From positions 1-38,914 of the forward strand of contig JAHBWT010000038.1 in assembly GCA_019636815.1 (NCBI GenBank): a DNA stretch of 38,914 nucleotides, written 5' to 3'. Shown one piece after another: positions 2,965 to 34,790 of this stretch. The position numbers were made by a program, and so were the translations under genes. The notes below the pieces were generated by a model. It was not told the DNA's origin. It made no database searches and saw only the letters and a list, made by a program, of their open reading frames with translations. Numbering within the stretch: position 1 is the first letter of the stretch; each line of letters begins with the position of its first letter. Source of the DNA: Nitrospira sp. (GTDB lineage: Bacteria > Nitrospirota > Nitrospiria > Nitrospirales > Nitrospiraceae).

Positions 2965-3438
2965 ATGCGTAAACGACTCCTCGATCCAACTCAGAAACAC
3001 GCGGCATCCGATGACCCCAACTGGTTGAATCTGGACAACCTGGCAGACGTCGAAGTCACCTCGGAAGACCCTGCCCATCCGATTGAAGCCGCACTGCTAC
3101 CCAACCAAGCGTCGGGATGGCGAGCGGGAGGGCGAGGCGAGCAAGCGATCCGACTGTTCTTTCGGTCTCCACAACGAGTTCGCCGAATCCGGCTAAACTT
3201 CGTGGAGGCTGAAACCGAGCGGACGCAAGAATATGTGCTGCGGTGGTCTCACGACGGAGGAAAAACCTTCCACGATATCGTGCGTCAACAGTGGAACTTC
3301 AGTCCCCAAGGGTCGACCTCGGAAACGGAAGATCACCATGTCGACCTTCCTCATGCCACAGCCCTTGAGCTCCGCATCATTCCCGACATCGGCAGGAACA
3401 GAGTTCCGGCATCTCTTGACCAGATGCAAGTAGCATAA
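2965..3438 (+). CDS. Hypothetical protein with discoidin-like beta-sandwich character
   Basis: The protein has 157 residues from ATG 2965, with a consensus AGGAGG ten bases upstream. It follows the HPF-like gene by 33 bases and is probably co-transcribed. There is no signal peptide or membrane segment. The segments VRRIRLNFVEAETERTQEY, VLRWSHDGGKTFHDIVRQQW and ALELRIIPDI alternate hydrophobic residues in the manner of F5/8-type (discoidin) domains, in which a 'substitution of a reference state by observed strain' pattern R-x-R-L-x-F is common. I do not recognise a precise family and assign no function. Confidence 0.7.
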   Translation: MRKRLLDPTQKHAASDDPNWLNLDNLADVEVTSEDPAHPIEAALLPNQASGWRAGGRGEQAIRLFFRSPQRVRRIRLNFVEAETERTQEYVLRWSHDGGKTFHDIVRQQWNFSPQGSTSETEDHHVDLPHATALELRIIPDIGRNRVPASLDQMQVA

Positions 3439-3977: not shown

Positions 3978-4991
3978 ATGAGAATCGCCGTTGCAACCGA
4001 TGCGTGGCATCCTCAGGTCAACGGAGTGGTCCGCACTCTAGGACAAACCGCCAAGTACTTGAAGGAGCTTGGTCATGATGTACAGTTCATCACCCCGCAG
4101 AGTTTTACGACGTATCCTTGTCCGACCTACCCATCAATAAGGCTTGCGGTGTTTCCAACGCGCGGCGTTCGTCATATGCTGCGTGAATTTCGCCCTCAGG
4201 CCATTCATATCGCCACCGAAGGGCCCATCGGCCATGCCGCGAGAGCGTTGAGTCGTCGCCTCTCTCTCCCCTTCACGACGTCGTACCATACGCAGTTCCC
4301 TGAGTACGTTCGCGCGAGGGTTCCATTGCCGATTGATTGGTCCTACGCCTACTTGCGCCGTTATCATAACGGGGCTGTTCGCACGATGGTCGCAACACCC
4401 TCGATGCGGGAGCGATTGGAAACGCGTGGGTTTAAAAATCTGGTCATTTGGGCACGGGGGGTGGACTCGGGCCAGTTTCGCCCCGGCCTAAAGTCCTTTT
4501 TATCCGATCCCAGGCCGATTTCCATGTACATGGGACGGGTGGCAGTTGAGAAAAATCTTGAAGCGTTCTTGGATCTCGATTTGCCTGGCTCCAAGTATGT
4601 TGTGGGGGATGGTCCCGACCTCGAACAATTTCGCTCGCGCTATCCCCGCGTCAAGTTTGTGGGACAGAAGGAAGGACAGGAGCTGACGTCCTACCTTGCT
4701 GCCTCAGACGTGTTTGTGTTTCCCAGCTTGACTGATACGTTTGGCCTTGTATTGCTCGAAGCGATGGCCTGTGGCGTGCCGGTGGCGGCTTTCCCAGTCA
4801 CCGGCCCGATCGATGTGGTCCAACAGGGGAAGACCGGGGTCCTTCATCAAGATCTTCGTCAAGCCGTACTTGAGGCATTGAAGCTTGACCCAGCGGATTG
4901 CGTCGCCTATGCGAAACAGCATTCCTGGCGAAGCTGGACGGAACGCTTCGTGTCGTTCTTGGAGCCGTTCGACGACCGTCGGTGGAGATAA
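3978..4991 (+). CDS. GT4-family glycosyltransferase
   Basis: This 337-residue enzyme is a GT-B fold, retaining glycosyltransferase of group 1. The N-terminal domain begins MRIAVATDAWHPQVNGVVRT, with the glycine loop for acceptor/donor binding. The linker before the C-terminal domain holds MGRVAVEKNLEAF (185-197), whose Arg and Lys contact the donor phosphates. The donor motif PSLTDTFGLVLLEA (249-262) has Thr where many GT4 enzymes have the first Glu, a pattern shared with the SqdX/MgtA and mannosyltransferase branch. This suggests a cytoplasmic enzyme adding a hexose to a membrane lipid. The start at ATG 3978 is the best available, although the nearest AGGAGG (3957-3962) is 15 bases away, which is wide. 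It converges on the lipid-related fusion gene. Confidence 0.85.
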   Translation: MRIAVATDAWHPQVNGVVRTLGQTAKYLKELGHDVQFITPQSFTTYPCPTYPSIRLAVFPTRGVRHMLREFRPQAIHIATEGPIGHAARALSRRLSLPFTTSYHTQFPEYVRARVPLPIDWSYAYLRRYHNGAVRTMVATPSMRERLETRGFKNLVIWARGVDSGQFRPGLKSFLSDPRPISMYMGRVAVEKNLEAFLDLDLPGSKYVVGDGPDLEQFRSRYPRVKFVGQKEGQELTSYLAASDVFVFPSLTDTFGLVLLEAMACGVPVAAFPVTGPIDVVQQGKTGVLHQDLRQAVLEALKLDPADCVAYAKQHSWRSWTERFVSFLEPFDDRRWR

Positions 4992-5120
4992 TAGACCTCG
5001 GCCAGACCGAACAAGGAGCATTCCGATTGTCAGCATCATGATGGCTTTTCAAGCTCTTTCGAGCAAAGTTCGTTTCGATGGAACGATATTCAAGATGATG
5101 TTCGAACGCGTGGAACGTTC

Positions 5121-7433
5121 TCAGTGCTTTTGGCTCATTTCATTCAGGGCATAGGGGGGTAGAAACGCCCGCCATTCTCTTGAAGAGCGCGGCAGATATG
5201 CCTTGATATCTGTGAAGGGATCGGTGAGGAGCTTCACGAACCAGATCATGGATGTCCGGAAATCGTGCAGCCAGGCTAAATAGGCCACGCGGCCCAGCAC
5301 CACGACGAGGGTCAAGCCCCACCACTGTTGGGCGATCACCGGCCACTGCTCAAGGAGCGAGGAGAAGGTCCAGCTGTCGGCCGCCATCATATTCGCCAAG
5401 AGGATCAGGCAGTAGGCGGACACGATCATCGTCTTGTTCGGTGTATTGAACCCAAGCAAAAGCGCTTCTTTATCATGGCAAGGTGGTTCAATCACTGCAT
5501 GTCCGAGCTGCCGAACAAAGAGAGCCGCCAAACTGGCGGTGACTGCCGTCGTCAGATCGGTAAAGATCAGGACGTAACAATAGATGAAGACGCTCGAGCT
5601 TAGGAGGTGGAACAGCTGATTCAGCGGGTGGCTGTGCGATGCAATATGATCATCGTGCTTCCGACGCATGATCTCGGTGTAAAAGGTCTTGAGTGGGCTG
5701 GGTGCCTGTATGACGCTCCCGATCAGTTCCTGGGTGAGTCGTGATTTCATGGCCTTCCTCCGTTCTGGTTGGTCGAGTCCGTCCAGCCACCAGCCATCCT
5801 GTTTCATGCGGGACGCGGCGGCAATCAACTTCGTGTGCAACTCGTCGTAATGTTCAGGCTTGAAAGCCATGTTGCTCAAGCATCGGCCCGTGCCGACCCA
5901 ACTCAGCGTCACGTCCTCCGCGCGCAGATAGTACTGGAGGAGCCAGTTGTATCGACCCGGCTGCTGGAACAGGATCGTCCAGACCGTCGTGAGATTGACG
6001 ATGCGGAGCGGGAGTGCCTGCTCTGCAAATTCGCGGTTGATTGTGGCGGCCCACTCGGTACAGTGTTGGCCGGCCTCATTGTAGAGTTGCGCGGCCTGGG
6101 GCGTGGTCACCCAGCGGAGAAATTCATTCATCGCGCCCATGACATGCGGATGCCCAGAAAAGGTGCCGACCACATAGGCCAGTCGCATAGGGTGAGCCGA
6201 GTCAAACCGGCGCATCAACTCTTTCTTGCCGCAGCACACGCCGATCGGCATGCCGCCACCGACGGTTTTGCCGTAGATCACCACGTCAGCTTGGACGTCG
6301 AAGTATTCTTGCGCACCGCCCGGCGCCAGGCGAAAACCTGAATACACCTCGTCAAAAATCAGCGGAATGTCGCAAGCCGTGCAAACCTCGCGGAGTTGTC
6401 TGAGCCACTGGGCATAGGGTGCATGGGCTCCTTTGGTCTTTCGGATGTCACTCGTCAAAAGGATCGCGTCGCTCGGTGGCGGTGAGTTGGGATGGAACGA
6501 TTGGATCGGGTTGACGATGACACCCGCGATATCTCTTTTCATTCTGCGAATGGCGTCGAGCGAGGCAGGATTGAGATCTTTCAACGTGATGCAGTCGTTG
6601 ATTTCCCGTTCGCTGCCGAGTCCAGGCTGCACTCCGTCCCACCAGCCGTGATACGCACCGGCAAAACACACGATGAACTTGCGACGAGTGTTGAATCGCG
6701 CCAACCGTATCGCCGCCATCACGGCTTCCGTGCCGCTCATGTGAAACGAAACTTCGTCCAGTTTCGAGATAGCCTTCAGCCTCGTGATATTGTCGGCGAC
6801 GATCGGGTGCAGAGGCCCCAACACAGGTCCCAGATCCTTCACACGCTCCCAGCCTTTCTCCATCCATTCCTTATAGCGATCGTACCCGGCGACATTGACT
6901 CCGTAGGAGCCGGTAAGGTCAAGCGACCAATGGCCGTCGATGTCGCGTAGCTTCGGCCCTTCGGATGCGGTTACCACAGAACACAGGTTGAACTTCTCCT
7001 GCATCAGGCGAGCGAACGGGAAGGGAACCCGGCCGGCATCCGTAAACCGCAGATCAGATAGACTGTTACGGATTTCGTTGCTCCAAATGACAGACTTCGG
7101 ATAACGTTTCTGAAAATAGTCGGCCAGGCGATCGAGCGCGCGCTGACGTCTTGCGGCCGTATCATCATCGGCGCCGTCGGCTTTAAAAAAGGTTTCTTCC
7201 GTGTAGGAGTTGGTCTTCACCCAACCGGAGAGGAAGCGGGAGAATATCGGCGTGAATGATCTGGCCCGGAGGATCTGCAGCTCGCGTGCTAGCTTCTTAT
7301 AGAGGAAGATGACGGAGATGGCGATCAGACAGAGTCCCACGATGATTCCGCTGTCGGCCCATAGAAGTCGACACTCTTCCGCCGCGCTCAAGCCCGCACA
7401 TGTCACCCATCTCAGTATGGCGTCGCTCAACAT
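5121..7433 (-). CDS. Membrane-anchored class III PLP aminotransferase fused to an Mpo1/DUF962-like membrane domain
   Basis: The protein has 770 residues; ATG 7433 is supported by AAGGAGG eight bases upstream. Residues 28-46 form one membrane helix. Residues about 130-555 are a fold-type I, class III aminotransferase like glutamate-1-semialdehyde aminomutase: SGTEA (233-237), AYHGWWDG (260-267), IFDEVYSGFR (359-368, Asp361 for the pyridine nitrogen) and the PLP Lys389 in VIYGKTVGGGMPIG. Family members usually stop near 430-450 residues. Here a C-terminal part (about 595-740) continues with HPLNQLFHL, RQLGHAVIEPP and several hydrophobic helices; the His spacing resembles Mpo1/DUF962 proteins, iron-dependent dioxygenases acting on 2-hydroxy fatty acids. 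The gene follows the metallophosphoesterase by 38 bases. A role in amino- or sphingo-like lipid metabolism is inference; the aminotransferase core is certain, the DUF962 likeness moderate. Confidence 0.85.
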   Translation of the reverse strand: MLSDAILRWVTCAGLSAAEECRLLWADSGIIVGLCLIAISVIFLYKKLARELQILRARSFTPIFSRFLSGWVKTNSYTEETFFKADGADDDTAARRQRALDRLADYFQKRYPKSVIWSNEIRNSLSDLRFTDAGRVPFPFARLMQEKFNLCSVVTASEGPKLRDIDGHWSLDLTGSYGVNVAGYDRYKEWMEKGWERVKDLGPVLGPLHPIVADNITRLKAISKLDEVSFHMSGTEAVMAAIRLARFNTRRKFIVCFAGAYHGWWDGVQPGLGSEREINDCITLKDLNPASLDAIRRMKRDIAGVIVNPIQSFHPNSPPPSDAILLTSDIRKTKGAHAPYAQWLRQLREVCTACDIPLIFDEVYSGFRLAPGGAQEYFDVQADVVIYGKTVGGGMPIGVCCGKKELMRRFDSAHPMRLAYVVGTFSGHPHVMGAMNEFLRWVTTPQAAQLYNEAGQHCTEWAATINREFAEQALPLRIVNLTTVWTILFQQPGRYNWLLQYYLRAEDVTLSWVGTGRCLSNMAFKPEHYDELHTKLIAAASRMKQDGWWLDGLDQPERRKAMKSRLTQELIGSVIQAPSPLKTFYTEIMRRKHDDHIASHSHPLNQLFHLLSSSVFIYCYVLIFTDLTTAVTASLAALFVRQLGHAVIEPPCHDKEALLLGFNTPNKTMIVSAYCLILLANMMAADSWTFSSLLEQWPVIAQQWWGLTLVVVLGRVAYLAWLHDFRTSMIWFVKLLTDPFTDIKAYLPRSSREWRAFLPPYALNEMSQKH

Positions 7434-7471
7434 CCTCTCACCCTCCTTCCAGGGACCCATCCGGTCTGTCG

Positions 7472-8329
7472 CTACGCGACGTCGCGGGTGCCTGAGGCGA
7501 CCACAAGATCCTCGTCCGGAAATAGCGATATCCGCTCTCGATCCGCGATGCGTGACCGTTTCAGGCTCGCCACGGTGTCCTCCCAGCGCAGGAGTTCCAG
7601 GCTCCCGTCGTGATGTTCCACCAGCGCGCTGCAACTCTCGACCCAATCGCCGCAGTTGCAATAAATCACATCGTTGAGCTTCGTGATTTCCGGCCGGTGG
7701 ATGTGACCGCAGACGACGCCGTCGACCCCGATGCGGGCGGCCTCGTACGCCACCACCGCCTCGAAATTGCTGATGAACTGCACCGCGTTTTTGACCTTGT
7801 GTTTCAGGAACGCCGCGAGCGACCAGTACGGCAGGTTGGCTTTTCGCCGGGCCCAATGGACGAGGTAATTGGCTTTGAGCAGCCAATCATACAGCCTGGT
7901 GCCCAGCATGGCGATGGCTCTCGAACTGCGAACCACACTGTCGAATTTATCCCCGTGGGTGATCAACAGGCGCCTGCCGTCCGCATTGGTGTGAATCGCC
8001 TCCTCCAGAATATGCACGTTTCCGAAGGTCATGTCGTGATAGTCGCGCAGTAGTTCGTCGTGATTCCCTGGAACGTAGATCACGGTGACCCCGTGCTTGG
8101 CCTTACCAAGGATCGTTCGCAAGACATTGTTGTGGGATTGCGGCCAGTACATCCGCCTCTTCATTTCCCAGATATCGATGACATCCCCGACGAGGTAGAG
8201 AAACTCGCATTCGACGGAGTGCAGGAAGTCGAGTAGGTGATCGGCGCTGCAGCCACGGAAACCTAAATGGACATCTGAAATCCAGATCGTGCGATACGAC
8301 AGCGGACGACTGCGGAGAGACTTACTCAC
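7472..8329 (-). CDS. LpxH-type metallophosphoesterase (UDP-2,3-diacylglucosamine diphosphatase-like)
   Basis: The 285-residue protein shows the full calcineurin-type metal site: SDVHLG (18-23), GDVIDIW (48-54), PGNHDE (87-92), THGDKFD (124-130) and GHIHRPE (208-214). The wide spacing and the HGDKFD variant fit the LpxH/LpxH2-like branch, which hydrolyses UDP-diacylglucosamine to lipid X in lipid A synthesis, though related proteins act on other nucleotide-lipids. The start is GTG 8329 with CCGGAGG eight bases upstream. It is the first gene of a two-gene operon with the PLP fusion, suggesting a shared lipid pathway that need not be the canonical lipid A route. Confidence 0.85.
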   Translation of the reverse strand: MSKSLRSRPLSYRTIWISDVHLGFRGCSADHLLDFLHSVECEFLYLVGDVIDIWEMKRRMYWPQSHNNVLRTILGKAKHGVTVIYVPGNHDELLRDYHDMTFGNVHILEEAIHTNADGRRLLITHGDKFDSVVRSSRAIAMLGTRLYDWLLKANYLVHWARRKANLPYWSLAAFLKHKVKNAVQFISNFEAVVAYEAARIGVDGVVCGHIHRPEITKLNDVIYCNCGDWVESCSALVEHHDGSLELLRWEDTVASLKRSRIADRERISLFPDEDLVVASGTRDVA

Positions 8330-8634
8330 CCGCTAGGCCTCCGGTGGATTGTGGCGCGCACGCGTTCTGCATGGTGAAATGCTAGAACAGGACTATTGCC
8401 TAACGATTACAGTCAGGACAAATTTTGGTGATCAACTGATGAAAATTGAGTAACCGACGCAACGCAGTTGTAACAGTCGGGCTTCCTCATCCCGTCGCTT
8501 GTGCATAGTTGAGTGCATCTGTGGCTCTTCTTGGCCCACGTACCCTTCGATAGGTGCGGAACGAGCGGATTCCGGCAAGAACCAAATAATGCGCCATCCT
8601 TTGGTGTTTGGTTAAGATTCGGTTAACAGTGAGG
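8330..8634. other. Divergent intergenic region
   Basis: About 300 bases separate the divergently transcribed metallophosphoesterase and hydrolase genes, so promoters for both must be here, but no convincing -35/-10 pair stands out. An inverted repeat AACCAAA...TTTGGTT lies at about 8580-8614 next to a GGTTAAC motif just before the hydrolase start. No gene is seen. Confidence 0.4.
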
Positions 8635-9465
8635 ATGTCGGTTGACCCGGAAGGTTGGGCTCCTCAGAATAAGGAGGCTCTTTGCGATTCCGATCGTAAC
8701 AGCGAGGGCTGCAAGATTCTCGTGACTCAGAACGGCACAGCGTTGTCGTCTGCCGACGAACTCCCATCAGAATCGATCACCCTTGTGCTTTTGCCCGGCC
8801 TTGATGGCACAGACGTGTTCTTTCGCCCATTGCTGGCGGCCCTGCCCGAGTGGATATCCCCGGTAGTGGTGCAGTTCCCTCCATCGGGAGCGAACGAATA
8901 CCCCGACTTGCTCGCGGTGGTCCGCAACATGCTGACGGCGATTCGGAGTTACTATGTCCTCGGGTGGTCATTTTCGGGACCTTTGGCGCTCATGTTGGCG
9001 ACAGCCGAGCCGGAAAAGGTTCAGGGCGTAGTTTTAGCGTCCACCTTCGTCCGCCCGCCCCGACGCATCTTTGCACAGTTGCGCTGGGCCGCAATGACAC
9101 CGACGGTGTGGATGATCCGTGTCGGAAAGAGACTGCCGGTTTGGCTTTCGCGTACCTCGACCGACCAGCTTCGACAGGACAAGAGGGAGACCTGGAAACG
9201 CGTAACCGCGCAGATGATCGCGGCACGTATCAGGACACTCCTTGCGGTGGATGCTCGACATGTGTTGAAGCGCTGTCCCTGTCCGGTGCTGTGCGTCGCC
9301 GGGCATGACGACGGGATCGTGCCGTACCGTAATGTTGAGGAAATGGCTCGTGTACGCGAATCGATGCGTGTCCGAATGATCGCCGGTGGGCATTTCGCCA
9401 TCTACACCAATCCAGCTGGCGCATCAGAGGCGATCACGGAGTTCATCATACGGGAGATGGGATGA
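8635..9465 (+). CDS. Alpha/beta hydrolase
   Basis: The 276-residue reading from ATG 8635 shows the alpha/beta hydrolase plan: an oxyanion region LVLLPGLDGTD (50-60), the nucleophile elbow YVLGWSFSGPLA with Ser112, the acid in AGHDDGIVP (Asp225 or Asp226) and the catalytic His253 in GGHFAIY. The elbow reads G-W-S-F-S rather than the usual G-x-S-x-G. The substrate cannot be told; small esters or acyl-lipids are usual. The start is uncertain: the first 45 residues are poorly conserved-looking, and an AAGGAGG at 8669-8675 could serve a later start such as GTG 8720. The stop overlaps the next start (ATGA), so it is translationally coupled to the TPR protein. Confidence 0.8.
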   Translation: MSVDPEGWAPQNKEALCDSDRNSEGCKILVTQNGTALSSADELPSESITLVLLPGLDGTDVFFRPLLAALPEWISPVVVQFPPSGANEYPDLLAVVRNMLTAIRSYYVLGWSFSGPLALMLATAEPEKVQGVVLASTFVRPPRRIFAQLRWAAMTPTVWMIRVGKRLPVWLSRTSTDQLRQDKRETWKRVTAQMIAARIRTLLAVDARHVLKRCPCPVLCVAGHDDGIVPYRNVEEMARVRESMRVRMIAGGHFAIYTNPAGASEAITEFIIREMG

Positions 9466-10187
9466 AGAACATCCATTGGCTGGCCTGTCTGTCACTGGCG
9501 CTCGGCGTCTCCGTTGGAATCGGGCCGGCCTTGGCTCAACGAGACGAGATGCCGCCTGGATATCCGCAATCGCTGGAGGCGGACTTGCATTCTCTCCTTA
9601 ATCGGCTCCGTGAAGGCAAACCATTGCCCGAGCTGCTCGTCCGGCTCTCCTCGACGTACTTCGATTTGGCCGATGATCTGCTGACAGACGACAATAAGCG
9701 CCGCGAGGCGTACCTGGCAGGAGCTAAAGCAGCAGAACAAGCGTTCAATCTGAACGAAAACAACGCGGATGCGCATTTTTTTCACGCGATTAATCTTGGC
9801 AGTGCCGAGCGTCTTCGGGGTATTGCAAACGCCGCACTGGTGGTAAAAGAAATGAAGCGTTGCGCGATGCGAGCGATCGAACTGAATCCCCAACATGCAC
9901 AGGCCCTTCAACTGATGGGCGCGCTGTCGATGGAGTTACCTTGGATTCTAGGCGGTGACGAGAAGAAAGCTCAAGAGTATCTCGAGAGAGCCATTGCGGC
10001 CGACGGAAACTATACCAAAGCACGCATTTTAGTCGCCCGGCTCTACAAGAAACAGGGCCGAATCAACGAGGCCATCACACAGCTGGAAGCTGTCATCCAT
10101 GCCGATAGGCCGCACTACCGCTATGCATGGGAACGCCAGTACAAGCAGGAGGCGGAACTTCTTCTGCACGAGCTCAGGCATCCTTAG
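9462..10187 (+). CDS. Secreted TPR-repeat protein (TatT-like)
   Basis: The protein has 241 residues with a Sec signal peptide (MKNIHWLACLSLALGVSVGI, cleavage likely after PALAQ). The rest is helical with TPR-like units: AYLAGAKAAEQAFNLNENNADAHFF, RCAMRAIELNPQHAQALQLMGAL, AQEYLERAIAADGNYTKARILVARLY and an INEAITQLEAVI unit. The order resembles the TatT component of TRAP transporters and other periplasmic TPR scaffolds, but no TRAP permease is nearby. It overlaps the alpha/beta hydrolase by four bases (ATGA), so the two are made together. Function unknown; a periplasmic binding or assembly role is the safe inference. Confidence 0.8.
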   Translation: MKNIHWLACLSLALGVSVGIGPALAQRDEMPPGYPQSLEADLHSLLNRLREGKPLPELLVRLSSTYFDLADDLLTDDNKRREAYLAGAKAAEQAFNLNENNADAHFFHAINLGSAERLRGIANAALVVKEMKRCAMRAIELNPQHAQALQLMGALSMELPWILGGDEKKAQEYLERAIAADGNYTKARILVARLYKKQGRINEAITQLEAVIHADRPHYRYAWERQYKQEAELLLHELRHP

Positions 10188-13979: not shown

Positions 13980-14036
13980 AGAAACGAGTTGTCGTGCACG
14001 TATCTCTATTCACCTCACCGCACCACTCCGTCCCCT

Positions 14037-14065
14037 GGCACAGCTATTCGAGCACACGATATAAT
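14037..14065 (+). promoter_or_regulatory. Promoter of the sigma54-activator gene
   Basis: A perfect TATAAT (14060-14065) lies 17 bases after GGCACA (14037-14042), which matches the second half of TTGACA. Transcription would start about 25 bases before ATG 14097, supporting that start over an upstream one at 13989. Confidence 0.5.
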
Positions 14066-14096
14066 AACCCGGTTTTCGCTCCCGGAAAGCCTGCCG

Positions 14097-16694
14097 ATGG
14101 CGTCACCTGATACTCTGACTGAGCGGTACCGCGCACTCCTGGACGTTTCGGAATCCATCGCAGTCCATCACGGCTTGACCGAGCTTTTTCGAGACCTAAC
14201 GCACGCGCTGCCTCGCGTCACCGCATGCTCCTCCATCGTTATAGCCTTGCATGACCCCGACCGCAACGTCATGCGGCTGCACCCGTTGGATGCCCTCCGA
14301 CCGGCCTCAGCTTTTCCTGGAATAGAATTCCCGGTCGAAGACGTTCCCGAAGGGTGGGTCTGGCAACATCAGAAGCCGTTCGCCTGCATAAACGTTGAGC
14401 AAGAGGCTCGCTTTCCCAAAGTGATGCCGAAGGCATACCTGACAGGCATCAGATCGTTCTATGCCGTTCCACTCACAACTGCGCACAGGCGGCTTGGCGC
14501 AATGGGCGTCGGAAACCAGGAGCCATATTACAATGAAGCAGTGGAGCTCGACTTCCTGCAACTCGTCGCCAAGCAAGTCGCTGGTGCGATTGATATCACA
14601 CTGAATTTTGAACGTGTGCATCAAGCGGAGCAGGACATGAAGTGTCAGTTCGAGCGGGAGCGCTTGATGCTGGAAATCAACAATGCTGTTGTCGCGCACC
14701 TCAGTCTCCGCGACCTACTCAAAGCCATTTCCCTCAGCCTACGTCGCGTCATTCCACACGACGCGGCCCTGTTAACACTCCACGAGCCAGGGAGCGACCA
14801 ACTTCGTCTCCACGCTCTGGATTTGCAGATGTTTGGCACGGTTCCCTTCGAAGAGGGTGTGTTGATCTCTGTAGAGGACACGCCTGAGGGGCAGGCCATC
14901 ACGTCACGCCGGCCTGTGTTGGTCTGCCCTGTCGTCGACCTCACACGGTTCTCTTCACCCTGGGTTCGGCATGCGGTCGACAACGGAGTCAGGTCTGGAT
15001 GTGCCGTCCCACTTATCTCGCACGATCGAACGCTCGGCGCGCTGAGCGTCGTGAGCTCTTGCGAAAACGCTTTTACAGAGGCCGATTCCAGATTGCTCGC
15101 ACAGTGCTCGAAGCAGATCGCGATCGCCGTGGAAAACGCTCTCAATTTCGAACGGGCGCATCTGGCGGAAAAAGAGATGAGGCGTCAGTTCGAGCGGGAA
15201 CGCTTGATGCTGGAAATCAACAATGCTGTTGTCGCGCACCTTGAACTGCCGGAACTCTTGAAGGCAATCTCCGCCTGTCTCCGTCGCGTCATGCCGCATG
15301 ATCTCTCCGGATTTTGCATCTATGACTCCGCGACCAACCAGTTGCGGGGCCATTTGCTGGACTGCCCGAGCAATCAGGAGTTTGGAGGGATAGGCGACCC
15401 GATTCCGTTGGAAGGCACCCCGGAGGGGTTGGCGTTCACTTCGCAAAAGACCGTTCTGATCAAGACGCTCGACCGTGCAGAGTTTTCCGCTGAGATCATA
15501 CAGCGAGGGGTGGCGGCTGGGCTACAATCCGGCTGCGCGGTTCCTCTCATCGCACACGGGCGAGCGTTAGGCACCCTCAGTGTGGCCAGTCTCCGTCAAA
15601 ATGCCTTCACAGAGAACGACGCGGAGTTGCTCGGCAATATTGGTTTGCAGGTCGCGATCGCGGTCGAGAATGTACTTGCGTATCAGGAAATCGCGAACCT
15701 GAAAGACAAACTAAACAAAGAAAAACTCTACCTCGAAGACGAAATCCGGAGCGAGTTGAACTTCGAGGAAATCATAGGCGAGAGCCCTGCGATCAAGAAC
15801 GTCCTGAAACAGGTCGGCATCGTCGCGCCCACTGACTCCACGGTGTTGATTCTCGGTGAGACGGGCACGGGGAAAGAACTGCTTGCCCGCGCCATCCACG
15901 ATCGAAGCAAGCGACGTGAACGGACCTTCGTGAAACTGAACTGCGCGGCGATTCCCACGGGCCTTCTCGAAAGCGAACTATTCGGACATGAGCGAGGAGC
16001 ATTTACGGGGGCGATCGCCACAAAAGTGGGACGGTTCGAATTGGCGGATGGTGGGACCATCTTCCTCGACGAAGTCGGAGACATTCCCCTTGAACTCCAG
16101 TCCAAGTTACTCCGTGTGTTGCAGGAACAGGAATTTGAGCGGCTCGGCAGCACAAGAACCATCAAGGTCAACGTTCGTCTGCTCGCGGCCACGAACCGGG
16201 ATCTTGCCGAAATGGTCGAGGATACTCGGTTTCGCGCGGATCTGTACTATCGTCTGAACGTCTTTCCCATCGTGAGCCCATCGCTTCGGGACCGCTCCGG
16301 GGATATTCCGCTCCTCGTCCGCTACTTTACGCGGCGGTTCGCTCGGCGAATGGAAAAACGAATCGAGCGAATTCCCTCAGACGCTATGGACACCCTGTGC
16401 CGATATCAATGGCCCGGTAACGTTCGAGAACTGGAGAATTTCATCGAACGAGCCGTGATCCTGTCTCAAGGGGCCGACTTGAGTGTTCCTCTCGGTGAGC
16501 TGAAAACTATGGTACGCGATAGACATCAATCCGTGACAACCCTCCACGCAGCAGAGCGCAACCACATTCTGCGCGCACTCGAAAAAACCAATTGGGTCAT
16601 CGCCGGCCCTTCCGGGGCGGCAACGTTGCTGGGCATGAAACGTTCCACGTTACAATCCAGAATGGTGAAACTCGGAATCTCACGCCCTTCCTGA
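14097..16694 (+). CDS. Triple-GAF sigma54-dependent transcriptional activator (FhlA-like)
   Basis: The 865-residue protein has three GAF domains (about 25-170, 205-350 and 385-528), a short coiled coil (530-552), an AAA+ sigma54-interaction domain and a Fis-type HTH. The AAA+ part is complete: GESPAIK (561-567), Walker A GETGTGKE (587-594), the sigma54-contacting GAFTGA (634-639), Walker B GGTIFLDEVG (652-661) and RFRADLYYRLNVFPI (711-725). The HTH is in HILRALEKTNWVIAGPSGAA followed by GMKRSTLQSRM. The layout is that of FhlA, which senses small ligands through GAF domains. The ligand is unknown. The two linkers between GAF domains are almost identical at DNA level, pointing to an internal duplication. 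ATG 14097 is chosen over 13989 because of the promoter. Confidence 0.92.
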   Translation: MASPDTLTERYRALLDVSESIAVHHGLTELFRDLTHALPRVTACSSIVIALHDPDRNVMRLHPLDALRPASAFPGIEFPVEDVPEGWVWQHQKPFACINVEQEARFPKVMPKAYLTGIRSFYAVPLTTAHRRLGAMGVGNQEPYYNEAVELDFLQLVAKQVAGAIDITLNFERVHQAEQDMKCQFERERLMLEINNAVVAHLSLRDLLKAISLSLRRVIPHDAALLTLHEPGSDQLRLHALDLQMFGTVPFEEGVLISVEDTPEGQAITSRRPVLVCPVVDLTRFSSPWVRHAVDNGVRSGCAVPLISHDRTLGALSVVSSCENAFTEADSRLLAQCSKQIAIAVENALNFERAHLAEKEMRRQFERERLMLEINNAVVAHLELPELLKAISACLRRVMPHDLSGFCIYDSATNQLRGHLLDCPSNQEFGGIGDPIPLEGTPEGLAFTSQKTVLIKTLDRAEFSAEIIQRGVAAGLQSGCAVPLIAHGRALGTLSVASLRQNAFTENDAELLGNIGLQVAIAVENVLAYQEIANLKDKLNKEKLYLEDEIRSELNFEEIIGESPAIKNVLKQVGIVAPTDSTVLILGETGTGKELLARAIHDRSKRRERTFVKLNCAAIPTGLLESELFGHERGAFTGAIATKVGRFELADGGTIFLDEVGDIPLELQSKLLRVLQEQEFERLGSTRTIKVNVRLLAATNRDLAEMVEDTRFRADLYYRLNVFPIVSPSLRDRSGDIPLLVRYFTRRFARRMEKRIERIPSDAMDTLCRYQWPGNVRELENFIERAVILSQGADLSVPLGELKTMVRDRHQSVTTLHAAERNHILRALEKTNWVIAGPSGAATLLGMKRSTLQSRMVKLGISRPS
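14644..14700 (+). repeat. Intragenic duplicated block, copy 1
   Basis: This segment encodes FERERLMLEINNAVVAHL and differs from the block exactly 540 bases downstream at a single position. The flanking GAF-coding sequence is much more diverged. Confidence 0.85.
15184..15240 (+). repeat. Intragenic duplicated block, copy 2
   Basis: This is the second copy of the linker block, 180 codons after the first and in the same frame. The near identity suggests gene conversion or a recent duplication of a GAF unit. Confidence 0.85.
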
Positions 16695-29278: not shown

Positions 29279-30268
29279 TCAGGCGCCGGGAGGCTTGACT
29301 GGAATCGCCGCAGTCAAGGTCAGGTCGAATTCCTGCGTGGCCAGTCCGCCATGCCCATCTTTTGCAACGACTTTGACGCGAAACGTTCCCCGTTGATCTG
29401 CCGGAATCTGCCATCCAATATGGCCTGTGCCCGAATTGATAGTCATACCGGGGGGAGCCATCTCCAAGTGATAGGTCAATGGATCGCCATCCGGATCAAG
29501 CGCGGTTACCGAGTAGTCGAACCGCCCTTGAACAGCTGCAGCGGGAGGAGTCGATACGATTGTTGGGCCACTATTGCTTAATATAAGTGGTTCAGACTTC
29601 GAAGAATGTGCGGAGCCGGCAGGATCACTGGCTGTCACTTCAACCGCAATCCTATCAGGAGCGACAAACCCGGCTGTGTCGAGAAAGGAATCTTCTCCTT
29701 CTTTGATGACCGTATCATTGCGATACCATTTGTAGGTCAAGTCAACGCGATCATGATCGGGATCGCTTGCATCAACTTCAACCTCCAGCTTGTCCCCGGC
29801 TCGAGCGGCCTGTGGGGTCAGTGAAATGGTCATCACTCTCGGAGCGGTATTCCCAACCGCCACACTCTTCGTTCGATACGCTCGGCCTTTGTTCGCACCA
29901 TCGGTTGGAATAATTTCCACCGCCACCGTCTGGCCACGCCTCAATAGGTCAGCCGGCAACGTGGCGTTGGTTTGATTCGCAAGGGGAGCGTCGTCCACGT
30001 ACCACTGGTATTCGAACGAGACCGCTTCGCGCTCAGGATCCTGCGCATCGACCTGAACCTCGACCGGTCCGGTGAGTGAAATGGGGTCGGCAAGGATCTT
30101 GGCCGAGGTGATGACAGGAGGCTGATTGCCTTTGGCGGGCGCCTCGGTAGGATCAGGAGAAGATCCGCCGGTACACGAGCTGTTGAAAACGAAGACACAG
30201 ACACCCAGAACGAGAAACAACGGTCGCGTGACACGTGAGCACCACGTATGCACGTCGGTCACGAGCAT
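29279..30268 (-). CDS. Lipoprotein-like protein with Ig-like/cadherin-type repeats
   Basis: The 329-residue reading from ATG 30268 has a hydrophobic export segment (PLFLVLGVCVFVFNSSC), whose Cys may be lipidated although the -3 residue is Asn rather than Leu. Three repeats follow of about 90 residues, each starting with a Pro-rich linker and containing VDAQDPEREAVSFEYQWY, VDASDPDHDRVDLTYKWY and TALDPDGDPLTYHLEMAPPG. The D-x-D-x-D loops point to calcium binding as in cadherin-like and PKD/He_PIG domains. It lies just downstream of PilY1 and may be a surface partner of the pilus. The start is not supported by a strong ribosome site. Confidence 0.75.
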   Translation of the reverse strand: MLVTDVHTWCSRVTRPLFLVLGVCVFVFNSSCTGGSSPDPTEAPAKGNQPPVITSAKILADPISLTGPVEVQVDAQDPEREAVSFEYQWYVDDAPLANQTNATLPADLLRRGQTVAVEIIPTDGANKGRAYRTKSVAVGNTAPRVMTISLTPQAARAGDKLEVEVDASDPDHDRVDLTYKWYRNDTVIKEGEDSFLDTAGFVAPDRIAVEVTASDPAGSAHSSKSEPLILSNSGPTIVSTPPAAAVQGRFDYSVTALDPDGDPLTYHLEMAPPGMTINSGTGHIGWQIPADQRGTFRVKVVAKDGHGGLATQEFDLTLTAAIPVKPPGA

Positions 30269-30359
30269 CGACACCGGTTCGTTGCGACCTTGGTGGTCGT
30301 GGCCCCGATGACCCGGAGCCACGGCCTGTTTGTCGGGACTATGGATCGATCGAGGTCCA

Positions 30360-33300
30360 TCAATCTCTCTGATGCACCCAGCTGACGAATCGACTGTAGA
30401 AGTCCCCGACGCTCGCAAGTTGCGTCGTGGTATTGCTGTTACTCATCTGTGACATCAGGGTCGCTCCCTCATTCCCCACGTGGACAGAGAGAGCCGACGC
30501 CATGCCGACCCCGAGGGAGACCTTCGTCGTCACATTCGTGTTGCTGCCGGAGGTCGACGTCCCGATCACCGGCGACGTAGACGCAGTGCCAGTCTTGTAG
30601 AACAGCGCATAGAGATAACTGGTTCCTTCCGAGCCGCAGAAATCGGATGTCGGGGCAAACGTTGGAAAGAATATGGTTCCTCCGAAGAGAGCCGGGTTCA
30701 CAACCGACCGCTCGGCGGAGTAATTGGTTGAGATGCCGCCGTTGACGATAGTGGACGGCCCAGGCAAGGTGACGCGCCACCCATCCTTCGATGCGACCAA
30801 GCCGATCATTGAGGTCGTATCCGTCCCATCGACTGTTGTGACACTCGGATTCGTCGGATCCGTCACCTGGTTCGTCGAGCCGCTACAGACGATGCAGACC
30901 ACCACGTTCGTCGCGTCGACAAGGTCGTTCGTATGACAACTGGTCGTGCTGACCTCTGTACAACCGGTCATCACCTTGTCTTTCATGCCATAAAGACGCT
31001 GAATACTGTTATCGACCTTGTCGGAGTTCCCGAGATATCGTCCTGTTCCAAAGAAGACCCACACCTGATTGCTGTCGTCGATCGTCCACGTTGGGGCGGC
31101 AGTCGGGGGGCCCACCTCAACCGTTCCCAACACCGGGTCGTTGAAGGTATCGATCATTTCGGTCGGCGTACGATTCACCCCGTTCGCGATTCCCCAACTC
31201 GTCGGCATGCAGGGCGCGGCCGCACAGCGCAGGGCAAGGCGATACATCTTGCCTCTCCATGGCAAGGCCCCGTCGTGCGCGGTACGTCCTGCATAGACAA
31301 CGTCGGTCCTGAAATCGAGGTCCTTATCTGCCGAGACCAATGGGCCTACGAACGATCGCCAGGTTCCCATTTGCATTCGAGTCACGTTGACATTGGCGAC
31401 ACCGGGCCCGGTGGCCAAATCTACCGTGTAGAGAGCCGCGGTCTGTGGCTGGGGCCGAGCAGGGAGTGGCGGAGCAGGGTCTGGCGGAGCAGAGAGATCA
31501 GCTTGATAGCCGTTCGGCCCTGACCCGAAGACGGCATACCATTTCTCATTGATCTGACTGGTGCTGGCATCGGCATCGGGATTGGCACGGACCACGGTCG
31601 GTGTGCTTGTCGTCAAGCCAAGGTCGACATCGGAAAACGTCCAGAGGAGTTTCGGATCGACTTCGGGATTCGTAATATCGAGCACGAAGAAAGCGCTGTA
31701 GAACGTGCGTGGGACACCACCGATGTTGACTGTCATGGGAGGTGCACCCGACCCCGCGGCACAATTCCCGCAGCTGCCTCCCAGACGGAACCCCCCGATC
31801 AAGACGGTTCCCCACCCACCAGGATGATCAGCATCCGGCGTAAAGATTCTGACGTCTGCAACGGTCGGCTTTAAGTCGACATAATACACGTGTGTGTAGT
31901 CGGTCCTGGCCAGCCATTGCAGTTGCGGGAGCAACTGCATGGGAACGAATCCCCACAACTCGGCGCCCAGGTTCGGTCCACTTGAGTTATTCGTCGGATT
32001 CTTGGTAAACCACCCATGCTCGACGGTTCCCGGAGTCGCAGGATCGTCTCCTCTATGGTAGAACCCACCGTTGAAGGCATGCAGCATGCCGTCGTTCGCT
32101 CCCAAGTAGATCACCTGACGCCTATTGCGGTACTGCTGAAAGAACGCGTTATAACTTGCATCACCGTAGACCAGATCGAACCTGGCGGTCGGCGCAGCGA
32201 CAATGGTCGGTGTCGAGTGAATCGCGTCGCCCAGTTTCCACACCTTGAACGTTCCGCTCCCGATCGGCACCTCGACCATCCTGGTACGCAGGCCTGGCAC
32301 CTCGTCCCCTCGGATGAAGTTGATGAGATTCATCGCGTTGCTGCTTCCCGAGCATGCATCGCCCGGATAGCGAAGATAGTCTCTCAGCGCCGCGCAGCTG
32401 GCTGGGCTGAAGTCAATTTGCTCAGTCGGATCAACGACTCCGTTATTATTCGGATCGACCCAAGTAAAGATTTTGCGCGAGGCGGAAGGAGTATCGGCGA
32501 GTTCCGCGCCCGCTTCCCAGATCGGCTTGATGTTCTTCAGATCGTCGCCGATGACGGTCGGCACCGCGCTGTCGGCGACTCCGTCACCGTTGGCATCAGT
32601 AAACTTATCAACCAATACTTTTCTGTAGGTCGGGCTGGATGGATCGTTGTCGAATCTCGTCGTGACGATCAGGTCGGTCTTGTAGTCAAGCACTCCATCC
32701 TTCACGGTGTCTTCTCGGAAGTTTCCGAAGCCATCGACGAACAGACCGTGGGCATAACCGGTCCACTTGACGCTCGCCCCCCCTTGTCCGATGTCGCTGG
32801 TGAAGAAGTAGGCCTGGTAGATCGACCCCTCACCCGTCGATGACGAGGAGAGCACCGATACCGACGTACCCGACGCGCTTTTCCGCAAAATTGCCGTGAT
32901 CGTGGCCATCAACCGGTCCTGCAGATCATCGACATTCGAGGACTCAAAGTAATTGTCGGGAATCCCGTCACTGCCCTGTGCCCCGGTCGCATTGATGACC
33001 TTGTCCCATTCGGAAGTCTGGTCGGGAAGGTTATTTCCATTTGAATCTTCAAATCCTCCGAGCAGCGCCGCTTTCATGAGCAATTCACGGCCGGTGATCG
33101 CGCCGAAGGCGTAGAAGCTATAGAAGTTGATATTTTGGAGCCCGGGCAGGCATCGGCCGGTCTCCCCCAACACCGCGATCGTGCCGTTCGCCGTGCCGTT
33201 GCAGGGCCGGAGATCGGTGGTATGGGCCCAGTAGGCCACGTCGTCCAGATAGTGCGTGCCATTGGTGAATCCTTGGGCATTGTAGTCGGTTCGGTGCTGT

Positions 33301-34790
33301 TTCAGGAGCACGCTGGGCGGCGTCGCCGGATCGTTGTTACAGGTATTTCCAGGATTATTCGCATAAGGCACGCCCCGATTCCCGGTGCAGAAGGTGCCCG
33401 CATAGGGCTGCGCGTTCGTATTGGCATAATTCTGGATGCTTAGAGGAATGTTCAGGTCCTGGGTCGGCTCACCATCCGTCACGAGCAAGACAAACGTCTT
33501 GCAGCAGGACACCTGAACGGAGTTCGTGGCCCAAGCCGGCGTGTGGTTGCTGCCGAAGAAGTAGGGATCACGGCCGCAGGCGTTGGTGATATACCCCGGA
33601 GGACACACTTCGCTTCCCGTCAAGGAGCTGATTTCGTTGGTTCCTATGGAACCGGCACCATTGCCTTTGAAGGCCACGCCGGGCGAATAGGCGATAGGAT
33701 AGACATACGAACTGGTCTGGTAGGCCGAATTGATCTGGGCCACGTAGCGGACCGTTTCATACAGAGATTCGGCGAGCGGCGTCCAGGTCGACGGAAAGGT
33801 TTCCTGAACCGCGTCCAGCATGGCCGCAGTGTTCGTATTGAACGTCTTCACCGTCGAGCTGTCGAAGCCGATGGTTTGGCGCGAACCGGCCCCCACCAAC
33901 ATACGTCCCCCATCGCCCGCTGTCGGCGACTTAAACTCGAACAGACCAAACCGAGCTTGGGGGCCAACCTGCTGGATGATGCCGGTCGGCTCCGAGTCCC
34001 TGACGATCCTGAGCCAATACTGAGTTTCAGCAAACCCGTCTCCATCAGTGCAGGTCGTCGCGGTATCGCCGGGCGTGGTCGCGTCGTTATCGATGCAGAA
34101 ACTGCCCCCCATCCCGTTGATGCCGCCGCGGTATTGAATATAGATCGTCCCAGGAGTTCCCGGGGTTGCAGCCGTCGGGATTCGATTCTGATACCCGTTC
34201 ACGCCCGCACTCGGGAGCGTCACCGCGAAGTGGCCGCGCGAGGCGACGTCGAACCGCTGTTGGGCCTTGATCGTAATCTTGGCCGGATTCCCGCTGGGCG
34301 GACAGGTCCCGTCGGCCGCTCTGGTCACGGCGCAGTCGCCGCCCGACATAGACTTCTTCAGGGCATCGATCCGGAGAAAGGTCGCCCAGTTCAAGAGGTT
34401 GCCGTCCCACTGCGTCGTAGCGGGACAACCGGAAGCGACCGTGGCTTTCTTTGCCGCTTCCTCGAAACGCGAGTTCGTCGTATTGTAGGTGTAGCAGGCC
34501 AGCGAATCGAACAACCCGCCGTAGGTCGTGGACGCCACGAAATTCTGATTGACCGGAGTGATCCCGCCGCCAGCTAAGACGCCGCACCACGTCGCATCGC
34601 AGGCCCGCAACGCCATGCTGCCGGAGTTATCCAGCAGGAGGATGATATTCGGCGCCACCTGTTCCGAGATGAAGGGCGGAACAGAGTAGTACTGGTCCAT
34701 CGTCTGCGCCAGCCCTGCGCCAGGCCCAGCCAGGCATCCGACGAACAGACCCATGACGGCTCCACGAACTGCGAGGTTCCGGCGATTCAT
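30360..34790 (-). CDS. pilY1: Type IV pilus tip/biogenesis protein PilY1
   Basis: The 1476-residue protein begins with a signal peptide (GAVMGLFVGCLAGPGAGLAQ). A von Willebrand A domain follows, with the MIDAS motif DNSGS (54-58) and a later acidic ligand in LLVTDGEPTQDL. The C-terminal half holds the PilY1 beta-propeller; VIYLGANDGMLHAFNGGFY is its hallmark. Two EF-hand-like calcium loops are visible, in WVDPNNNGVVDPTEQIDF and DANGDGVADSAVP. PilY1 is at the pilus tip, promotes extension and mediates adhesion and surface sensing. AAGGAGGG precedes ATG 34790. The N-terminal part is Cys- and Asn-rich, suggesting disulphide bonds. Length is in the upper range for PilY1. Confidence 0.93.
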   Translation of the reverse strand: MNRRNLAVRGAVMGLFVGCLAGPGAGLAQTMDQYYSVPPFISEQVAPNIILLLDNSGSMALRACDATWCGVLAGGGITPVNQNFVASTTYGGLFDSLACYTYNTTNSRFEEAAKKATVASGCPATTQWDGNLLNWATFLRIDALKKSMSGGDCAVTRAADGTCPPSGNPAKITIKAQQRFDVASRGHFAVTLPSAGVNGYQNRIPTAATPGTPGTIYIQYRGGINGMGGSFCIDNDATTPGDTATTCTDGDGFAETQYWLRIVRDSEPTGIIQQVGPQARFGLFEFKSPTAGDGGRMLVGAGSRQTIGFDSSTVKTFNTNTAAMLDAVQETFPSTWTPLAESLYETVRYVAQINSAYQTSSYVYPIAYSPGVAFKGNGAGSIGTNEISSLTGSEVCPPGYITNACGRDPYFFGSNHTPAWATNSVQVSCCKTFVLLVTDGEPTQDLNIPLSIQNYANTNAQPYAGTFCTGNRGVPYANNPGNTCNNDPATPPSVLLKQHRTDYNAQGFTNGTHYLDDVAYWAHTTDLRPCNGTANGTIAVLGETGRCLPGLQNINFYSFYAFGAITGRELLMKAALLGGFEDSNGNNLPDQTSEWDKVINATGAQGSDGIPDNYFESSNVDDLQDRLMATITAILRKSASGTSVSVLSSSSTGEGSIYQAYFFTSDIGQGGASVKWTGYAHGLFVDGFGNFREDTVKDGVLDYKTDLIVTTRFDNDPSSPTYRKVLVDKFTDANGDGVADSAVPTVIGDDLKNIKPIWEAGAELADTPSASRKIFTWVDPNNNGVVDPTEQIDFSPASCAALRDYLRYPGDACSGSSNAMNLINFIRGDEVPGLRTRMVEVPIGSGTFKVWKLGDAIHSTPTIVAAPTARFDLVYGDASYNAFFQQYRNRRQVIYLGANDGMLHAFNGGFYHRGDDPATPGTVEHGWFTKNPTNNSSGPNLGAELWGFVPMQLLPQLQWLARTDYTHVYYVDLKPTVADVRIFTPDADHPGGWGTVLIGGFRLGGSCGNCAAGSGAPPMTVNIGGVPRTFYSAFFVLDITNPEVDPKLLWTFSDVDLGLTTSTPTVVRANPDADASTSQINEKWYAVFGSGPNGYQADLSAPPDPAPPLPARPQPQTAALYTVDLATGPGVANVNVTRMQMGTWRSFVGPLVSADKDLDFRTDVVYAGRTAHDGALPWRGKMYRLALRCAAAPCMPTSWGIANGVNRTPTEMIDTFNDPVLGTVEVGPPTAAPTWTIDDSNQVWVFFGTGRYLGNSDKVDNSIQRLYGMKDKVMTGCTEVSTTSCHTNDLVDATNVVVCIVCSGSTNQVTDPTNPSVTTVDGTDTTSMIGLVASKDGWRVTLPGPSTIVNGGISTNYSAERSVVNPALFGGTIFFPTFAPTSDFCGSEGTSYLYALFYKTGTASTSPVIGTSTSGSNTNVTTKVSLGVGMASALSVHVGNEGATLMSQMSNSNTTTQLASVGDFYSRFVSWVHQRD

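Follow-up and report, generated by a model that had tools for sequence, protein, structure and literature searches.

A 38,914-nucleotide contig of Nitrospira sp. (GenBank assembly GCA_019636815.1, contig JAHBWT010000038.1; hereafter the window) carries three genes at positions 3978 to 8329: a GT4 glycosyltransferase gene, a gene for a pyridoxal phosphate (PLP) protein that joins a class-III aminotransferase to an Mpo1-like domain, and a metallophosphoesterase gene. We propose that this locus is a phosphate-limitation lipid-remodelling module, in which the PlcP–Agt route is joined by a branch leading to a phosphorus-free aminolipid, and we put the probability of this proposal at about 0.62. Homology supports its PlcP–Agt part well, and a new aminolipid is the predicted product of the added branch.

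The phosphoesterase gene (7472..8329, minus strand; an intact open reading frame (ORF) of 285 aa), the first gene of an apparent operon, is annotated as LpxH-like. Its product was 51.9–52.8% identical to the protein in the PlcP position of P. aeruginosa (one comparison, both directions) and 48.5% identical to the corresponding S. meliloti protein, two references that are mutually 46.6% identical, whereas its identity to E. coli LpxH was 28.8% over 118 aligned residues. The references were picked by their gene neighbours, LuxI/LuxR genes in S. meliloti and a GT4 gene with a cyclase gene in P. aeruginosa (locus L128); from gene order, they are probably SMc00171 and PA3219. According to the available sections of PMC8528852, PA3219 is 46–47% identical to two characterised PlcPs. 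The metallophosphoesterase residues (D-H, GD, GNHD, H and GHxH) are all present in the window protein, and GNHD is found in it and in every aligned PlcP-like relative, whereas E. coli LpxH has GNRD. With the LpxH model TIGR01854, the window protein scored 49.8 bits, where the cut-off is 190.35, a match at superfamily level only. Sequence identity and the tree both place the protein with PlcP and far from LpxH, strongly indicating a PlcP-type phospholipase C. Databases label PlcP-type proteins UDP-2,3-diacylglucosamine diphosphatase, and the assignment proposed here would correct this common misannotation.

An LpxI_C match of 172.7 bits was obtained in the same genome (G000:C143), and LpxI was found in 38 of the 39 genus- and order-level genomes searched. 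The phosphoesterase itself was present in 5 of 59 genomes of the order and missing from the other 54. A role as LpxH in lipid A synthesis was rejected because the TIGR01854 cut-off was not reached, LpxI is present and the sequence groups with PlcP. The original prediction was therefore mistaken in calling the enzyme LpxH-type. It was right to separate the locus from lipid A, given the PlcP- and Agt-like genes and the near-universal LpxI, and the check it proposed, for another UDP-diacylglucosamine hydrolase in the genome, revealed that the phosphoesterase is not the sole candidate.

The GT4 gene (3978..4991, plus strand; 337 aa, intact ORF with Pfam GT4 domains) lies two genes from plcP and is convergent to it and to the PLP gene. 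Over 328 aa, its product was 47.6% identical to the GT4 protein beside PlcP in the P. aeruginosa record (the Agt1 position), strong evidence by homology for an Agt-like enzyme of the glycosyl-diacylglycerol synthase type. The earlier description of a lipid-type GT4 converging on the PLP gene thus agrees with this identity and with the strands and coordinates. In the accessible part of PMC4796936, no gene neighbours plcP more often than an agt-type gene does, and there and in the accessible part of PMC8528852, PlcP–Agt by itself is a complete known pathway operating under phosphate limitation, so a glycolipid is expected. The available text of PMC9239053 reports that glucuronic acid diacylglycerol (GADG) requires plcP–agt in Methylosinus and that the assignment against Pelagibacter references was accepted at 51% (PlcP) and 43% (Agt); the identities found here are comparable. 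Like PlcP–Agt remodelling in Sinorhizobium, Roseobacter, Pelagibacter, Pseudomonas aeruginosa and Methylosinus, the window has both enzyme families (48–53% identity), a GT4 gene nearby and a degenerate Pho-box-like element upstream of plcP. It differs in the convergent GT4 gene, in the membrane aminotransferase–Mpo1-like gene between GT4 and plcP, and in its host, Nitrospira. Because the presumed LpxH is a PlcP, half of the locus appears to be a known system. Of the amino- or glycolipid steps first suggested, the glycolipid is thus expected from homology, whereas an aminolipid made by the PLP fusion is possible but unproven.

The PLP gene (5121..7433, minus strand) is an intact ORF of 770 aa that begins 38 bp past the phosphoesterase stop; this spacing and the shared direction make the two genes an apparent operon. 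We set the start at ATG 7433 because a GGAGGG-type ribosome site lies upstream and the relatives in three other Nitrospira genomes (G005, G010 and G029) start at the matching position. A 921-aa ORF was rejected as the true protein, as its start falls within plcP. An AlphaFold2 model (mean predicted local distance difference test score (pLDDT) 81) contains a 33-residue N-terminal helix (residues 25–57; 7263..7361, minus strand) that probably spans the membrane, a class-III aminotransferase fold (about residues 149–545 by Pfam and Foldseek; 5799..6989, minus strand) and a C-terminal helical domain (residues 575–770; 5124..5711, minus strand). Pfam class-III aminotransferase PF00202 matched with 109.9 bits (E=1.6e-31). 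Lys389 and Asp361, whose PLP roles were assigned by homology, are invariant across 43 aligned sequences, the window protein included. The glutamate-1-semialdehyde aminomutase (GSA) model TIGR00713 gave 168.3 of 527.3 bits and did not reach its cut-off. The best Foldseek match was 6kfm, the aminotransferase domain of MycA (target-normalised TM score 0.84); by sequence, too, no solved structure matched better. The window protein resembles this domain of mycosubtilin synthase and glutamate-1-semialdehyde aminomutase in fold, PLP lysine and GSA-like core, at 22–27% identity; it differs from them in being free-standing and in having predicted membrane segments, an Mpo1-like domain and a lipid neighbourhood. 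A 92-aa stand-alone copy of its N-terminal segment (42–43% identity) was observed between plcP and the aminotransferase gene in two Nitrospira genomes (L035, 9691–9969; L036, 18099–18377), which suggests a partial duplication.

The C-terminal domain matched the Mpo1 family, PF06127, with 18.9 bits, and two stand-alone Mpo1-like relatives scored 22.3 and 22.7 bits, all against a cut-off of 24. Alignment of this part to one annotated Mpo1-like protein with hhalign gave a probability of 12.6% and an E-value of 0.0023, and no solved structure matched it at E ≤0.001. His, Asn and Glu residues are invariant over 46 sequences, and the domain is modelled with a pLDDT of 88. Like the Mpo1 2-hydroxy fatty acid dioxygenase family, it is a small helical protein unit with spaced His and Asn and a GH-x3-E motif. 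Unlike that family, it is longer, scores below the cut-off, carries an extra C-terminal K-x2-TDP-x2-D motif and is tied to an aminotransferase. The P. aeruginosa record also holds a short gene annotated as Mpo1-like (7438–7755), one cyclase gene past the plcP–agt pair.

Of 59 genomes in the order, five contain full or partial copies of the PLP fusion, and the same five contain those of the phosphoesterase. All five are within the genus (5 of 35), and the two genes were adjacent in each. This co-occurrence and adjacency show that the arrangement is not due to chance, and the conservation expected for the neighbourhood was thus borne out for this block. PLP copies were full-length in G000, G005, G010 and G029; the G007 copy is split by contig ends. 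Each of the five genomes also has the GT4 gene, the other four copies being 76–82% identical to that of the window: a search of 39 genomes (23 of the genus) at E 1e-40 found it in G000, G005, G007 and G010, and the G029 copy was seen in locus L037. The G007 copy of GT4 is on a separate contig, next to a fragment from the C-terminal end of the PLP gene. A divergent alpha/beta hydrolase gene and a gene for a tetratricopeptide repeat (TPR) protein often belong to the conserved block; for window genes outside the block, blastp against the four 20-kb neighbour loci gave nothing of interest.

A scan of a genome collection with the fusion protein gave at least 567 relatives, of which 80 loci were kept. 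Adding the window and a further four Nitrospira loci brought the analysed set to 85 loci, or 84 without L036, which shares a contig with L046. By record title, most of the 80 loci are from Proteobacteria, and others are from Nitrospira, Candidatus Binatia, Rokubacteria, Holophagae and Vicinamibacteria. The Mpo1-like part was fused in 17 of 84 loci, a separate nearby gene in 61 and not seen in six, all of them interrupted by a nearby contig end. In a midpoint-rooted FastTree tree, the fused proteins formed a single clade (16 of 43 tips, support 1.0). A phosphatidylserine decarboxylase (PSD)-type gene was present in 63 of 85 loci, all of them unfused (63 of 67, compared with 0 of 18 fused loci). 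Contig ends interrupt all four of the unfused loci lacking it (L038, L085, L106 and L121); L038 in fact represents a truncated fused gene of Nitrospira. All nine non-Nitrospira genomes tested had a second PSD, and the two Nitrospira genomes tested had one PSD each. The lack of PSD in fused loci and the single PSD in Nitrospira indicate that no complete pathway is common to all loci.

GT4 matches of any kind (phmmer, E 1e-5) occurred in 67 of 84 loci and PlcP-like genes (>120 bits) in 24. In 32 of 84 loci (27 when cluster 28 is left out), methyltransferase or DUF3419 genes lay no more than 8 kb away, identities resting on a family search with one representative per cluster. These neighbours comprised PEMT (PF04191) in 6 loci, a PmtA-like methyltransferase near 16 loci (162.9 bits, below the cut-off of 390), and cluster 28 in 5 loci, which matches Pfam RrnaAD and is presumably PmtA-like. 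DUF3419 genes with an adjoining methyltransferase gene were observed near the aminotransferase in L053, L054, L055, L057 and L104; we take the former to be BtaA and the latter BtaB. The BtaA/BtaB betaine-lipid (diacylglyceryltrimethylhomoserine, DGTS) pathway is not known to include an aminotransferase. That pathway resembles the present system in being fed by PlcP-derived diacylglycerol (PMC4796936, available part) and in its genes lying near the same aminotransferase in these 5 of 84 loci, whereas the window block has no such gene.

PlcP was then compared with long GT4 fusions in 37 author-chosen genomes from among those behind the 80 loci, whose completeness is not established; the fusions were judged at the locus. 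PlcP was present in 0 of 10 genomes with a PHP-like–GT4 fusion and in 25 of 27 without one (Fisher p 2e-7, a value inflated by relatedness and by gaps in metagenome-assembled genomes (MAGs)). The fusion loci are L059, L060, L063, L065, L076, L081, L091, L106 and L119, with L105 as a weaker case (0 of 9 with PlcP when L105 is left out). The fusions are about 900 aa long (that of L106 is cut by a contig end), stand beside the aminotransferase gene and combine a PHP-like N-terminus with a GT4 part. Nine carry the motifs DxHCH and GGSDDH, and L105 has a weaker DFHLH; we presume these motifs to be of PHP type. In the five long fusions tested, the only match to a Pfam PHP domain was a sub-threshold PHP_C match in L105, and the label "PHP-like" is tentative. 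The fusion seems to stand in for PlcP as a combined phosphoesterase–glycosyltransferase, and, to judge from the exclusion pattern, the aminotransferase route may depend on a phosphoesterase together with a GT4 enzyme.

Phosphate control was examined by motif counts, which are inflated by closely related Bradyrhizobium loci. Of the 85 loci, 18 had a Pho box (at least 11 of 14 positions, either strand) around the start of the aminotransferase gene, compared with 1 of 85 mononucleotide-shuffled regions. On the sense strand, 17 of 72 loci had it upstream of the aminotransferase; among the regions upstream of other recurrent genes, 13 of 202 had it (p 2e-4). The set omits 10 Nitrospira and 3 cut loci, and the background includes Pho genes such as ppk. 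Sense-strand boxes also preceded 20 of 65 GT4, 4 of 16 PlcP and 7 of 59 Mpo1-like genes. PstS-, PhoU-, Ppk- and Ppx-type genes were near 7, 6, 9 and 6 of 84 loci, respectively, counts that have no chance control. These results suggest PhoB control in part of the Proteobacteria.

Upstream of the window plcP lies a Pho-box-like array of three 7-mers in 11-bp phase (8428..8456, minus strand; CGGTTAC-N4-TTTTCAT-N4-TGATCAC). It matched 11 of 12 scored positions, a score that 0.41% of random windows attained (1961 windows of 270 bp, drawn from the same loci). Among ten Nitrospira loci, a TCAY-type triple before plcP scored at least 10 of 12 in seven (4.6% of random windows) and at least 11 in four, including the window (0.41%). 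With a stricter TGTCAY score, 13 of 18 was reached in 5 of the 10 loci (2.6% of random windows), in one of them at another site. For 102 genes kept in nine Nitrospira loci, a set outside which the window plcP falls, scores of at least 11 occurred only before plcP (three cases). PhoB control in Nitrospira is suggested by these arrays more weakly.

On this basis, a route can be outlined. Homology argues strongly that PlcP would cleave membrane phospholipids to diacylglycerol and phospho-headgroups, from which phosphate would be freed, and equally that the Agt-like GT4 would add a sugar (glucose or glucuronate) to the diacylglycerol. The membrane aminotransferase and its Mpo1-like domain may then convert a product of the route into a second, nitrogen-bearing phosphorus-free lipid, which could substitute for phosphatidylethanolamine or phosphatidylcholine. 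In relatives, the second PSD and the lipid N-methyltransferase or BtaA/BtaB-type genes may trim and methylate the headgroup. A full headgroup pathway, widespread and so far undescribed, can be drawn for a phosphorus-free aminolipid open to N-methylation, in which the aminotransferase and Mpo1-like oxygenase would aminate a diacylglycerol-derived headgroup, the second PSD and N-methyltransferases would finish a mimic of phosphatidylethanolamine or phosphatidylcholine, and either PlcP or the PHP-like–GT4 fusion would supply diacylglycerol; we regard this extended version as doubtful. The PSD and methyltransferase neighbours fit an amine on the headgroup, and the MycA resemblance together with a sub-threshold Thioesterase match in the neighbouring hydrolase (22.2 of 26.4 bits) fits one on the acyl chain.

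Several observations weigh against a remodelling module with an aminolipid branch. The proposal is drawn entirely from gene content, homology, co-occurrence and motif statistics, and the Mpo1 resemblance and the Bradyrhizobium-inflated counts have the limits given above. PSD is missing from every fused locus and the two Nitrospira genomes tested have a single copy. A PEMT gene resembling the N. moscoviensis one was present in one of the five positive same-genus genomes, and PEMT was accordingly rejected as a core of the module. In genome G008, a partial GT4 gene stands at a contig edge and neither the PLP gene nor the phosphoesterase was found. Two cases, a Zoogloea MAG (L093) and the contig-edge locus L121, have neither PlcP nor, at the locus, the PHP-like fusion. 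No Pho box preceded any of 56 PSD or 16 cluster-6 methyltransferase genes. The window has no classical Pho box near the locus, the two 3-mismatch matches elsewhere in it comparing with 3.1 expected by chance. The Nitrospira plcP motif is degenerate, and no array scoring at least 10 was found before PstS-like genes among the 102 genes of the nine Nitrospira loci.

We consider it unlikely that the locus makes glycolipids only, with the aminotransferase–Mpo1 protein degrading released headgroups or lipids in a salvage of ethanolamine or serine lipids. Mpo1 itself has a degradative role, its family is named after a fatty-acid dioxygenase and the aminotransferase core is GSA-like; PlcP–Agt, moreover, is complete without a further enzyme in the accessible parts of PMC4796936 and PMC8528852. 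Against this stand the probable membrane anchoring of the enzyme and its linkage to a biosynthetic second PSD, N-methyltransferase or DUF3419 genes.

It seems a good deal less than probable, too, that the aminotransferase–Mpo1 pair modifies an acyl chain (for example, beta-keto to beta-amino acyl) for an acyl-amino lipid, the headgroup genes being unrelated, and we rate this as quite improbable. In its favour, the MycA domain, the closest solved relative by both sequence and fold, acts on a beta-keto acyl chain bound to a carrier, which it aminates; the Mpo1 family takes its name from 2-hydroxy-palmitic acid, and the Nitrospira neighbour hydrolase has its sub-threshold Thioesterase resemblance. 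Against it, no acyl carrier protein or ketosynthase was recognised among the recurring neighbour clusters, only some of which were family-scanned. It is scarcely credible that the phosphoesterase is a variant LpxH with a function in lipid A synthesis and merely incidental neighbours, as the database name and the weak TIGR01854 match are set against LpxI in this and nearly all searched genomes, the absence of the gene from most of the order and its grouping with PlcP.

Judged by sequence, the new half of the proposed remodelling module is a recurrent, uncharacterised enzyme pair in a strong lipid and phosphate context. Among the matches listed from the literature searched, with most subscription papers and all preprints outside it, there was no description of the aminotransferase–Mpo1-like pair, and Nitrospira terms were absent from those listed on this lipid topic. 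The word "aminotransferase" does not occur in the available main text of PMC9239053, PMC11631085 and PMC5193443, the last of which describes an Agt homologue. If the proposal is correct, PlcP–Agt remodelling reaches the nitrite-oxidising Nitrospira, an undescribed lipid step is present in many Proteobacteria, recognisable by its membrane aminotransferase, its Mpo1-like protein and the second PSD, and a class of phosphorus-free membrane lipid has gone unrecognised. The class-III aminotransferase, which is annotated in generic terms and has hundreds of relatives, would also gain a role. N. moscoviensis, which has the locus (L052), and Bradyrhizobium and Methylobacterium species are among the carriers of the aminotransferase gene, which makes the proposal testable.

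Divergent from plcP lies the alpha/beta hydrolase gene (8608..9465, plus strand; Pfam Abhydrolase_6), a Nitrospira-conserved neighbour with 69–72% identity in L035, L037 and L038 (cluster 10, 8 loci). The TPR-repeat protein gene follows it (9462..10187, plus strand; Pfam TPR) and is kept in some Nitrospira, with 64–73% identity in L037 and L038. Upstream of GT4, positions 2965–3438 (plus strand) encode a protein of 157 aa that contains an F5/8 type C (discoidin-like) domain. Farther away, positions 13989–16694 (plus strand) encode a likely sigma-54 activator of 901 aa, in which GAF domains accompany a sigma-54 interaction domain, and a probable type IV pilus protein of 1476 aa (30360–34790, minus strand), which contains a PilY1 beta-propeller domain (PF05567), adjoins a putative Ig-domain protein (29279–30418).

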